A stretch of 64,000 nucleotides of DNA from Candidatus Acetothermia bacterium. Its GTDB lineage: Bacteria > Bipolaricaulota > Bipolaricaulia > Bipolaricaulales > Bipolaricaulaceae. The DNA lies in NCBI GenBank assembly GCA_024653305.1, contig JANLFW010000001.1, positions 155,780-219,779 on the forward strand. Reading direction: 5' to 3'. Every line of letters starts with the position of its first letter. Position 1 is the first letter of the stretch. Under the pieces are notes generated by a model. It searched no databases and was not told the origin of the DNA. It saw only the letters and a list, made by a program, of their open reading frames with translations. A program made the translations under genes and the position numbers. Below are positions 11,978 through 46,258 of this stretch, piece after piece.

Positions 11978-13164
11978 CGGGCGCGGGCCCCTGCCGCCTC
12001 GAGGAGCTCCTCCACCCGGTCGGGGGCCTCCCAGGTCGGGGCAAGATCGAGCCGGCCGAAGTGCCCGTAGCACGCGAACGGCTCGTAGATCGGCCTCCGC
12101 AGGTCCAGCCGCTCGATGATCGCCGCCGGGCGGAAGTCGAACACCTCGAGGACCACCCGGCGCAGCGCGTCCAGGGAGAGCCTCCCGGTGCCGTGCGTCT
12201 CCACGTTCACCGCGATGGGACGGGCCTGGCCGATGGCATACGCCACCTGGACCTCACACTCCTGGGCGAGCCCCGCCGCCACGACATTGATGGCCACGTA
12301 GCGGGCCATGTACGACCCGGACCGATCGACCTTGGTCGGGTCCTTGCCGGAGAACGCCCCCCCGCCGTGGGAGCCGTAGCCGCCGTAGGTGTCGGCGATG
12401 ATCTTGCGCCCGGTCATCCCGGTGTCCGAGGCCGGGCCCCCGATCACGAACCGCCCCGATGTGTTGACGAGGATCTCCGTGTCCTCGTCTAGCCATCCGT
12501 CGAGCACCGGTTCCACCACCAGCCGCTTTAGATCCAGCCGCAACTCCTCAAGGGGGGTCTCCTCCGCGTGCTGTACGGCGAGGAGCACGGTATGGGCCCG
12601 GATTGGCCGCCCGTCCTCGTACTCCACCGTGACCTGGGTCTTCCCGTCCGGGCGTAGGTAGGGAAGGGTCCCATCCCGGCGCACCTCGCTCACCCGCTGG
12701 GCCAGCTTGTGGGCCAGGGTGATGGGAAGCGGCATCCGCTCCGGCGTCTCGGTGGTAGCGTAGCCGAACACGATCCCCTGGTCCCCCGCTCCCACCTGGT
12801 CGTACGGGTCCGTGGACCCGGCCCGGGCCTCCCGCGCCTTGAGCACGGCCTGGGCGATGTCCGGCGACTGCTGGCGGATGAGCACCGCTACCGCGCACGC
12901 ATCGTGGGAAAGCCCGTACTCCGGCCGCGTGTACCCGACGTCCCGGATCACCCGGCGCGCGATCTCCCCCGGCTCGATGTGGGCGGTGGTGGCGACCTCG
13001 CCGCCGATGATGACCAGCCCTTGCATGGTGAACGTCTCGCATGCCACCCGGCCCTGCGGGTCCTGGGCGAGCACCGCGTCCAGGACCGCGTCGGAGATGC
13101 GGTCGGCGAGCTTGTCCGGGTGCCCCTCGGTCACGGATTCCGCGGTGATCAACTTCGTGGCCAA
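11974..13164 (-). CDS. metK: S-adenosylmethionine synthetase
   Basis: 396 residues. Characteristic motifs are TAESVTEGHPDKLADRISDAVLDA at the N-terminus, the GAGDQGIVFGYATTE loop, and GGGAFSGKDPTKVDRSGSYM (P-loop-like). It makes SAM from methionine and ATP. The frame opens at GTG 13170. TTG 13164, 5 nt after GGAGG, gives the typical MATKLITAESV start. It converges with the TauE-type gene (4-nt overlap). A link to sulfur metabolism is plausible but not shown by the arrangement. Confidence 0.96.
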   Translation of the reverse strand: MATKLITAESVTEGHPDKLADRISDAVLDAVLAQDPQGRVACETFTMQGLVIIGGEVATTAHIEPGEIARRVIRDVGYTRPEYGLSHDACAVAVLIRQQSPDIAQAVLKAREARAGSTDPYDQVGAGDQGIVFGYATTETPERMPLPITLAHKLAQRVSEVRRDGTLPYLRPDGKTQVTVEYEDGRPIRAHTVLLAVQHAEETPLEELRLDLKRLVVEPVLDGWLDEDTEILVNTSGRFVIGGPASDTGMTGRKIIADTYGGYGSHGGGAFSGKDPTKVDRSGSYMARYVAINVVAAGLAQECEVQVAYAIGQARPIAVNVETHGTGRLSLDALRRVVLEVFDFRPAAIIERLDLRRPIYEPFACYGHFGRLDLAPTWEAPDRVEELLEAAGARAR

Positions 13165-43525: not shown

Positions 43526-44980
43526 GTGGCCGTCCAGAACAGGATTCGAAAGGTCCAGAAGCGCGACCGGTCCCTGGTCCCGTTCGATCAAGGGCGGATC
43601 GTGCACGCGATCCTGCGGGCTGCCCGCTCGGTGGGCGGGTTTGCGTTGGACCTCCTCCCCGGGGTGAACGACCGCCTGTTCGCGTACGGGGACGACGAGC
43701 ACATCGCCGAATTCCTGTCGGACGTGGTGATCACTGTCCTCAACCGCGACCCCCGCCACTGGGTGGCCAACTTCCCCCCCACGATCGAGGAGATCCAGGA
43801 CACGGTGCTCCACGTGCTCAGGAGCTTCGGGTTCGTGACCGTGGCCGATGCCTACGAGTGCTGGCGGTGGGGGAAATACTGGGTGCGGGTGGGGGCGATC
43901 ACCCTGGACCAGTTCGTGGGGAACGGCTACCCCTCCCCGTTCCACGATGAGATCCTCGCCTGGAACCGCGACCATGGCTGCGACACGGTGGACGGGTTGA
44001 ACGCGATCGTCCGGTCGGGACGGCTTCCGGATCTGGTGGCCGCGGCCACCGAACGCTACGAGCGGTCGGTGGACGGGGCGGCGGAGGAGATTTTGCGGCG
44101 CCTCGAGCGAGGCGACGACCTCCGGATGATCTGGATCTCCGGACCCTCCTCCTCGGGCAAGACCACGACCACGGTCAAGCTCACCGCACGCCTGGGGAAA
44201 GAGGGCCTCCAGTTCCTGATGCTGAACCTGGACGACTACTTCTGGCCCCTGGTCGAGCATCCCACCGACTGGCTGAACGACCGGAACTTCGAGACCCCGG
44301 AGGCCCTGGACATCCAGGCCATCAACCGCCACCTGCGAGCGCTCCTTGAAGGCGAAACGGTCGAGAAACCGATCTACAGCTTCAAGGAAGGGCGGCACGT
44401 GGGGACGAAGCCAGTGCGCCTCAAGAAGGGGCACATCCTGCTGTTGGATTGCCTGCACGGGTTCTACCCGCCCCTCACCGCGGGGATCGAGCGGGAGTGC
44501 ATGTTCCGCCTGTACATCGAGGCCGTGAACATGCTGTACGAGGGCGACGGGGCGAGCGAGCGGCTGACCCAGTTCACCGACGTGCGGCTCCTCAGGCGGA
44601 TGCTGCGGGACGTGCAGCACCGGAACCATCCGCCGCTTCAGACCCTCCTCCATTGGCACTACGTCAGGAGCGGGGAACTCTTCTCCATCATCCCCCTCAT
44701 GGGCCTCGCCGACCACGTGGTGAACGGGGGGATGCCGTTCGACCTGCCCGTCTTGAAGCCGTTCTTTGTCCCGGACGGGATCTGGCCGCGGCCGGAGGAG
44801 GTGGCCCCGTACGATTCTTTCCTCGATGCGCGGATTCGGTATCGACGGATTACAAACCTGCTTTCGCAGGTGGCCGGGCTCACCCTGTGGGAGGCCGAGG
44901 ACCACGGGCTGATCCCTGGGGATCACCTGGTGCGGGAGTTCATCGGCGGAAGCACCCTCCGGATCCCGCATAACGAGTAA
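43526..44980 (+). CDS. ATP-cone domain fused to uridine kinase/phosphoribulokinase-like kinase
   Basis: 484 residues. The N-terminus (about 8-95) is an ATP-cone: VQKRDRSLVPFDQGRIVHAILRAARSVGG, as in ribonucleotide reductase and NrdR. The kinase part follows from about 205 with Walker A WISGPSSSGKTTTTVKL, LMLNLDDYFWPL, and HILLLDCLHGFYPPL. It ends LVREFIGGSTL, like the kinase at 28815. The cone probably senses ATP/dATP and gates the kinase; the acceptor (nucleoside, sugar or glycerate-type) is unknown. GTG 43526 is 6 nt after TATAAT (43514-43519), without a ribosome site. Confidence 0.83.
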   Translation: MAVQNRIRKVQKRDRSLVPFDQGRIVHAILRAARSVGGFALDLLPGVNDRLFAYGDDEHIAEFLSDVVITVLNRDPRHWVANFPPTIEEIQDTVLHVLRSFGFVTVADAYECWRWGKYWVRVGAITLDQFVGNGYPSPFHDEILAWNRDHGCDTVDGLNAIVRSGRLPDLVAAATERYERSVDGAAEEILRRLERGDDLRMIWISGPSSSGKTTTTVKLTARLGKEGLQFLMLNLDDYFWPLVEHPTDWLNDRNFETPEALDIQAINRHLRALLEGETVEKPIYSFKEGRHVGTKPVRLKKGHILLLDCLHGFYPPLTAGIERECMFRLYIEAVNMLYEGDGASERLTQFTDVRLLRRMLRDVQHRNHPPLQTLLHWHYVRSGELFSIIPLMGLADHVVNGGMPFDLPVLKPFFVPDGIWPRPEEVAPYDSFLDARIRYRRITNLLSQVAGLTLWEAEDHGLIPGDHLVREFIGGSTLRIPHNE

Positions 44981-44985
44981 CCCCC

Positions 44986-45014
44986 TTGACAGGGGGCGAC
45001 GGGCGTCGTATCTC
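44986..45014 (+). promoter_or_regulatory. Promoter of candidate small RNA
   Basis: TTGACA (44986-44991), 17-bp spacer, TATCTC (45009-45014). It points to a start at about 45020-45022, the base of a perfect hairpin. The TTGACA also lies in the loop of CCCCC-TTGACA-GGGGG (44981-44996), a hairpin right after the kinase stop. Confidence 0.6.
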
Positions 45015-45019
45015 TCTTT

Positions 45020-45130
45020 GTGCCGGGCGGAAGCCCGGCGCTTCGTTTGGTACAAGTTTTTCCGTGGCCCATGGAACCGAAGGCTTCCGCCGATGGGCCC
45101 GGACAGCCGCGGCACAACAAAACTTGTGTT
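45020..45130 (+). ncRNA. Candidate structured small RNA
   Basis: After a consensus promoter, the sequence opens with GCCGGGC-GGAA-GCCCGGC (45022-45039), then a second domain closed by ACAAGTTTT (45052-45060) and AAAACTTGT (45119-45127), with an inner TCCG-GGCCCAT / ATGGGCC-CGGA stem (45061-45072 with 45093-45103) and smaller hairpins inside. GTGCCG (45020-45025) can also pair with CGGCAC (45110-45115). No ORF of note on plus. It lies between two convergent genes. I do not recognise the family. Confidence 0.5.
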
Positions 45131-45134
45131 TGGC

Positions 45135-45548
45135 CTATCCCCCGAACAGCCTTGCCCAGAACGAGCGGTTCGCCCGCGGGGGCTGCGTCTGCACCGCTCC
45201 CTCCTGCCGGGCCTGGGCCACCGCCGCGTCCCACTTGCCCCGGGCCCGCGCCTTGGCCTCCCAGAGCTCGGCGAACTTGGCCACCGCTGCGTAGGCGTCC
45301 TTCCGCGACACCGCCGATCCCCCGCGGGCCAGGGACGCCAGCACCTCGTCCAGGGAGGCGATGTCCGGCCGGATGTGCACCTCCTCGCCCTCGGCCACGA
45401 GGAGGTACCGGGTGGCGTCGGCGATGAGCCCGAACGAACCGGCGTCCACCGAGCCCACCGGGAGCACTTCCTCCACGAACTCCCGGTCGGCCTCCAGGTA
45501 CTCCCGCTCCAGCCGCCCCCTCCAGCCCATCGCCACGCCCTCGGCCAC
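45135..45548 (-). CDS. Hypothetical protein downstream of ferritin-like gene
   Basis: 137 residues, soluble, charged. It has an acidic first half (LEREYLEADREFVEEVLPVGSVDAGSFGLIADATRYLLVAEGEEVHI), a helical middle (AYAAVAKFAELWEAKARARGKWDAAVAQARQE) and a tail ending FWARLFGG. No domain recognised. GTG 45548 overlaps the ferritin-like stop codon; ATG 45530 is the alternative. Coupled to the ferritin-like gene, so possibly involved in metal or oxidative stress handling, but this is only context. Confidence 0.65.
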   Translation of the reverse strand: MAEGVAMGWRGRLEREYLEADREFVEEVLPVGSVDAGSFGLIADATRYLLVAEGEEVHIRPDIASLDEVLASLARGGSAVSRKDAYAAVAKFAELWEAKARARGKWDAAVAQARQEGAVQTQPPRANRSFWARLFGG

Positions 45549-45964
45549 TACCGGCCCTTCATCACGAGGAACGCGTTGTGGTGCTCCTCCTCGTCGGCGA
45601 GGATCCCCTCGAAGAGCGTCCTGGTGGTGGAGTCCTCCTCCTTCGTGGCCAGCTTGATGATCTCCTTATAGAGGGCGATCGCTTCCTCCTCGGCCTTGAT
45701 GTCGAGGTCGATCATGTCGGAGAGCTTCTCCCCCACCGTGATCGGCGCGGGCTGGGTGGTGGGGACGCCGCCCAGGTAGTCGAGCCGCTCGGCGATCGCC
45801 TCGGCATGCTTCATCTCAGCGATCGCGATCTTCCTTAGCCGGTCCGTGACCTCCAGCGACTCCACCCCCGTGGCCCGCACGTGCTGCCACATGTACTGGA
45901 TGGACACCTGGATCTCCCGGGCGATCGCCTTGTTCATGAGCTCCTTCAGGTTCTCGGATGCCAT
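45548..45964 (-). CDS. Ferritin-like diiron protein (bacterioferritin-type)
   Basis: 138 residues, four-helix bundle. Diiron ligands are evident: ELMNKAIAREIQVSIQYMW, AIAEMKHAEAIAERLDYLGG, and second-half DIKAEEEAIALYKEI and ILADEEEHHNAFL. This pattern is the bacterioferritin/rubrerythrin-like class of small ferritins, which oxidise iron or detoxify peroxides. ATG 45964 has AAAGGAGGAAGC upstream. No rubredoxin domain is fused. Confidence 0.9.
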   Translation of the reverse strand: MASENLKELMNKAIAREIQVSIQYMWQHVRATGVESLEVTDRLRKIAIAEMKHAEAIAERLDYLGGVPTTQPAPITVGEKLSDMIDLDIKAEEEAIALYKEIIKLATKEEDSTTRTLFEGILADEEEHHNAFLVMKGR

Positions 45965-46097: not shown

Positions 46098-46256
46098 GTC
46101 GGGGATAAACCCCGACGCTACGGTCCTTCCCCCTCCCCCTTGATGGGGGGAGGGTCAGGGAGAGGGTGATCGCGGCACGAGGACGACCCCCCTCTCCCCC
46201 ACCCTCTCCCACAAAGGGGAGAGGGGGCAAGCATAGCGTCGGGCTTTATGGCCGAC
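46098..46256. repeat. Composite palindromic repeat with inverted hairpin arms (MITE-like)
   Basis: Two 25-nt arms at 46098-46122 and 46232-46256 are inverted copies with four mismatches; each arm can fold on itself around ATAAA/TTTAT (stems GTCGGGG/CCCCGAC). Between them lie two units of the CCCTCTCC/GGAGAGG repeat family that also occurs at about 10235-10350 and 21494-21548. No transposase is inside. The element lies in a gene-poor gap. Size and terminal inversion suggest a mobile or REP/MITE-like cassette. Confidence 0.6.
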
Positions 46257-46258
46257 GA

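Follow-up and report, generated by a model that had tools for sequence, protein, structure and literature searches.

The window, as the term is used here, is the whole 64,000-nt stretch of DNA that was analysed, and it belongs to a 1.59 Mb assembly in 73 contigs that is 95% complete (G000). Between a plus-strand gene ending at 44980 and a minus-strand gene with its stop codon at 45135, convergent as the preliminary description had them, lies the block 44986-45130. All the motifs named in that description were found in the sequence. The block does not correspond to one RNA, however, but splits at about 45050 into two parts, here called unit A and unit B. The features of the region are as follows.

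43526 to 44980, plus strand: gene for an ATP-cone and uridine-kinase-like protein of 484 aa (Pfam PF03477 and PF00485; 99% identical in the sister genome G001)
44981 to 45050, plus strand: unit A, a candidate promoter and terminator-hairpin transcription unit (covariance models R1 and R2; one to two copies per genome in many relatives)
44986 to 44991, plus strand: -35 hexamer TTGACA
45009 to 45014, plus strand: -10 hexamer TATCTC, its first two positions, T and A, invariant in 36 copies
45020 to 45041, plus strand: hairpin GTGCCGGGC-GGAA-GCCCGGCGC of 9 pairs, at the expected +1
45042 to 45050, plus strand: T-rich tail TTCGTTTGG, a putative termination site from a terminator scan, with T-rich tails in the family
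45045 to 45050, plus strand: left direct repeat GTTTGG, a probable target-site duplication (a single CTTTGG in the sister)
45051 to 45127, no strand: unit B, a MITE-like palindromic insertion of 77 bp, absent at the site in the sister G001
45052 to 45060 and 45119 to 45127, no strand: perfect 9-bp terminal inverted repeats of unit B, ACAAGTTTT/AAAACTTGT
45128 to 45133, plus strand: right direct repeat GTTTGG, a probable target-site duplication (single copy in the sister)
45135 to 45548, minus strand: gene for a conserved protein of 137 aa, the convergent flank, with homologues beside unit A in genera g1 and g5
45548 to 45964, minus strand: ferritin-like gene (Pfam PF00210), upstream of the 137-aa gene

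The 137-aa protein matched no Pfam family, and in genera g1 and g5 its gene is conserved next to a ferritin-like gene.

The promoter of unit A had been called near-consensus. This applies to the -35 hexamer, which is perfect, and to the 17-nt spacer, but the wording is too strong for the -10 hexamer, which agrees with TATAAT at only three of six positions. A simple sigma-70 scan did not include the promoter of unit A among its listed promoters. Across the family the -10 hexamer has the form TATATA, TATTTA, or TACTTA, preceded by TCG or TCA. The GGAA-capped 7-bp hairpin of the preliminary description is present and is contained in the 9-pair stem, which begins five bases past the -10 hexamer. 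The 34 nt around this hairpin fold with -20.9 kcal/mol (z -4.1). Because transcription usually starts 6-7 nt from the -10 hexamer, the start of the unit A transcript would lie at about 45020-45021, on the first bases of the stem or within 1-2 bases of them. As a U-tract, the tail TTCGTTTGG of G000 is weak, and several relatives have TTTTTT or longer. A promoter-driven structured small RNA is thus retained for 44986-45050, with a conserved promoter, a covarying hairpin, and a T-rich tail, but not for the remainder of the block, where unit B is an insertion; the predicted RNA has a size of about 30 nt and not of about 110 nt.

The site of unit B is empty in the sister genome, which reads CTTTGGCCTA where G000 has GTTTGG, the 77 bp, and GTTTGGCCTA. 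The pair ACAAGTTTT/AAAACTTGT, previously described as closing an RNA element, is present as the terminal repeats, and so is the inner GGCCCAT/ATGGGCC stem (45066-45072/45093-45099). Apart from these two positions, the 9-mer ACAAGTTTT is absent from the 1.59 Mb assembly, no further copies of the body or ends of unit B were found in the 95%-complete assembly of G000, and a full-length unit B was absent from 99 other genomes of the class. Unit B shares with MITE-type insertions its shortness, the perfect terminal inverted repeats, the probable 6-bp target duplication, and the empty site in the sister, but unlike them it is single-copy with no sibling copies found. A multi-copy MITE was rejected on account of the single copy in G000 and the lack of a full-length copy in a relative. 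Because a 20-base piece of unit B sits in the sister inside an insertion of about 280 bp, repeat-rich and missing from G000, unit B is assigned to DNA of the insertion type, with turnover between the sisters. On sequence grounds, it is an unrelated, recent MITE-like insertion behind the terminator and outside the RNA family of unit A. The insertion in G001 carries REP-like GTCGGCC..GGCCGAC hairpins (L057, contig 45, about 12100-12380, compared with G000 contig 14, 3197-3200), and a short repeat similar to it is found in the window near 46234-46258. A 15-mer from unit B gave scattered matches to viral contigs.

In the preliminary description GTGCCG and CGGCAC were proposed as an alternative closing pair, which would allow one RNA of about 110 nt to adopt two conformations across both units. 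Both motifs are present as part of an 8-nt match, TTGTGCCG/CGGCACAA, and unit B is complementary to unit A in a 10-nt stretch as well (GGCGGAAGCC/GGCTTCCGCC). The whole 145 nt fold somewhat better than shuffles (z -2.1), and the score of the local alignment of unit A with the reverse complement of unit B was reached by 1 of 1000 shuffles, using gap costs of our own choice. On the other hand, 38 of 1000 shuffles attained the energy of the duplex between the units, and with the alternative long helix the fold loses 7 kcal/mol compared with the two separate hairpins. The sister, moreover, has no unit B at this site, and no full-length copy was found in any relative. A single two-conformation RNA is barely credible on this evidence. 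Because unit B is absent elsewhere, the pairing between the units is not read as a switch, and such a switch would be unlikely as an evolved feature. Colinear reverse-complement pieces of unit A (45018-45035) occur in unit B (45082-45117); they may be a partial inverted copy or have arisen by chance.

A DNA search showed that the first 58-70 bases of the block recur in other genomes. Outside the sister, these copies are not located beside the kinase gene but on the 3' side of ferritin-like genes. The covariance model R1, built from six copies found in this search, recovered 13 strong copies in as many genomes of genera g1 and g5, along with weaker matches in other genera in which the sequence of the hairpin differs. 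A second model, R2, with 23 members, gave E values below 1e-10 in 26 of 40 genomes of the Bipolaricaulota family, and it also recovered copies that were not part of the model (G003, G008, and G014, and second copies in G017, G019, and G006). In a second family, f2, matches to R2 were found at 1e-8 to 1e-10, whereas none better than 5.8e-4 was obtained in families f3-f9, no convincing unit A was found by R2 in genus g12, and a small control search of loci from other phyla gave a best E value of 0.04. Usually one copy of unit A is present per genome, sometimes two, and the family is now described by a covariance model and coordinates in over 30 genomes. As stated in the preliminary description, no recognised Rfam family is involved: at the gathering threshold, Rfam 15 gave no match to unit A in the window and in about 40 loci that contain relatives of unit A, where it found only SRP RNA and tRNA, and at a permissive threshold the block in the window gave only matches far below the gathering score.

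None of the 36 aligned copies departs from TTGAC or from the C.TA of the -10 region, the spacing is 17-18 nt, and the stem starts 2-10 nt past the -10 hexamer (median 6). The promoter is conserved more strictly than the hairpin, and the distance between them is nearly fixed. In pairs of copies from genera g1 and g5 the -35 block is identical at 11 of 11 positions, and the flanks have diverged. A stable hairpin followed by a T-rich tail was found in 29 of the 36 copies, compared with 0.05% of sites taken at random from the window. Double-sided, compensatory changes occur in five of the seven core stem pairs among 23 copies, and one is seen within genus g5 (GCGGGG/CCCCGT in G060 instead of GCCGGG/CCCGGT). 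In the stem alignment 97.5% of the cells are paired, a percentage that is inflated by the members outside g1 and g5 having been picked with a model that scores hairpins; no slid control exceeded 47%, and shuffled controls stayed far below. The covariation that the preliminary description had proposed to look for is present in the hairpin of unit A once relatives are included, but the six founder copies alone show none. The loop and the leader vary between genera and are not conserved.

The pattern CTTGACA-N13..16-TCRTA occurs at two sites in G000, in unit A and upstream of a tRNA-Leu gene, and in the sister G001 it is found in unit A, before a tRNA cluster led by tRNA-Lys, and before a short leader ORF. 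Because the same pattern elsewhere precedes tRNA genes and a leader ORF, the promoter of unit A is of the kind used for stable RNAs in these genomes. The possibility that a common promoter had been taken for an RNA gene was rejected, as the pattern occurs only two to three times per genome and its other sites lie before tRNAs, a leader ORF, and protein genes, none of them with a hairpin at +1.

The genes around unit A change from genus to genus. In g1 and g5, it faces the 3' end of a ferritin-like or bacterioferritin operon. It lies immediately 3' of CDC48 in G003, G008, G009, G011, G016, G017, and G006, and it faces the large SRP RNA in G008, G011, G017, and G006. Unit A is located between RtcB and tRNA-Pro in G007 and G022, ahead of tRNA-Pro in G019 and in the f2 genomes G036, G090, and G091, and ahead of trpS in G043 and in the other copies of G022 and G019. 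Among the genera, five or more different gene contexts are seen, and unit A is conserved independently of its neighbours. Because it usually occurs in one copy with changing neighbours, unit A looks like the gene for a product, judging from these comparisons, and not like a part of a neighbouring gene. An antisense RNA to the ferritin operon was rejected, since that arrangement holds only in genera g1 and g5. The earlier statement that unit A is no cis-riboswitch for a plus-strand gene is borne out by the relatives, which have no constant downstream gene; a riboswitch or attenuator was rejected with the convergent genes here and tRNA-Pro, trpS, or an SRP RNA on the opposite strand elsewhere. 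At five loci (L235, L286, L288, L289, and L295; CDC48 in four genomes) the TGA stop codon of the upstream gene lies within the TTGACA of unit A.

We infer that unit A is transcribed and that its transcription ends at its own hairpin, and that the hairpin RNA has a shape-based role in trans. A stable-RNA-type, sigma-70-like promoter would fire into a GC-rich hairpin whose first bases lie near +1, with RNA polymerase released by the T-rich tail after about 25-30 nt, so that the product would be little else than its own terminator hairpin. Such an RNA may act in trans not through base-pairing but through its stem, loop, and U-tail, which a protein or RNA polymerase would recognise. A dedicated start-stop unit that yields an RNA hairpin of about 30 nt, acting in trans and recognised by shape, is our preferred reading, to which we assign a probability of roughly one half. 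Targets are unlikely to be bound by base-pairing, given that none of the unpaired sequence is conserved: the conserved unpaired seed of a base-pairing, Hfq-type small RNA was not found, and loop and leader differ between genera. Hfq (PF17209) was absent in six genomes of the class and present in 5 of 14 control genomes, which makes the Hfq-like partner envisaged in the preliminary description unlikely. Against the preferred reading are the poor -10 hexamer and the weak U-tract in G000, a hairpin of about 30 nt devoid of conserved unpaired bases, and the lack of an obvious target in trans. In more general terms, and tentatively, unit A may be a conserved start-stop gene, transcribed from start to termination within about 30 bp, whose function lies in this act or in a sequence-free hairpin shape; the sequence of the RNA would carry no information, and selection in the two families of this deep-branching phylum would act only on the promoter and on the folding of the terminator.

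The main rival to the trans-acting hairpin is a start-stop element working in cis, where the RNA is waste and the loading and release of polymerase within about 30 bp form a roadblock or insulator between transcription units. No RNA sequence is conserved outside the stem, and the sites lie at gene borders (immediately behind the stop codons of the kinase, CDC48, and RtcB, opposite ferritin operons or SRP RNA, ahead of tRNA-Pro), as such a role would have it. RNA polymerase has moreover been observed to stay on the DNA after termination and then to restart (PMC6978322). Repeated cycling at unit A is conceivable because of this observation, which is not evidence for unit A itself. The usual single copy and the neighbours that differ by genus, however, are more in line with a gene product than with a boundary device that belongs to particular genes, and we consider the cis role rather unlikely. 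It is improbable that the hairpin is an ordinary intrinsic terminator of an upstream plus-strand gene, next to promoter-like sequence kept by chance or ancestry. Its location in G000, and in the copies behind CDC48 and RtcB, is the expected one for a terminator, and several of the hairpins have T-rich tails, but most g5 copies and those in G006, G014, G077, and G082 have an upstream gene of opposite orientation, so that there would be no plus-strand transcript to end, and a terminator does not agree with a promoter that is conserved more strictly than the hairpin at a nearly fixed distance from the stem. A terminator of the kinase gene only was rejected, as in many relatives no same-strand gene precedes unit A. 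Many copies in family f1 contain the inverted repeat TGACA-N12..13-TGTCR, which suggests a DNA site with TTGACA...TGTCRTA as an operator dyad and the hairpin as a feature of the DNA. The f2 copies carry ATATCGTA instead, so that the dyad is lost and the promoter spacing is kept, and the T-rich tail fits a transcript; an operator is highly improbable.

The oop RNA of phage lambda, about 77 nt long and antisense to a fixed gene, resembles unit A in the closeness of promoter and terminator and in being a very short RNA. It differs in its greater length and fixed antisense arrangement, whereas unit A has its hairpin at +1 and changing neighbours. The terminator-ended small RNAs of bacteria, such as SgrS and RyhB (PMC5558911), share with unit A, as predicted, an own promoter, a 3' intrinsic-terminator hairpin with a U-tail, and an independent gene, but unit A lacks a body or seed before the terminator and occurs in genomes of which the six searched have no Hfq gene. 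A search of the open-access literature turned up neither an earlier example of an RNA gene consisting of a terminator alone nor reports of small RNAs in Bipolaricaulota. If transcribed, unit A would rank with the shortest known genes dedicated to an RNA product. This leads to the question of what a cell gains from a promoter that serves only a terminator hairpin, be it a protein decoy, a site of polymerase cycling, or a boundary device. Existing metatranscriptomes would allow a test, as the definition of the family is sufficient for this purpose.

Promoters of the same class were also seen in front of other elements. In genus g12, one of them is followed by a conserved GC-rich block (..CCGGCCAACGCCCCGGCCGGGGCGTAACC) in G048, G018, and G024 (L221, L223, and L225), which gave no match in Rfam and is possibly a different small RNA or a leader. 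Another precedes a shared block (GTTGCGTCGCCC...GAGACCGCCTAGGTCTGAA..) in G012 and G045 of the same genus (L216 and L224), again with no match in Rfam. On contig 11 of G000 (L299, 2976-3160) and at L300, L248, and L211, a strong promoter of this class leads into a short ORF ending in YWFA, then hairpins, and a gene for the substrate-binding protein of an ABC transporter. This arrangement is conserved in G000, G001, and G021, and the ORF is possibly an attenuation leader.
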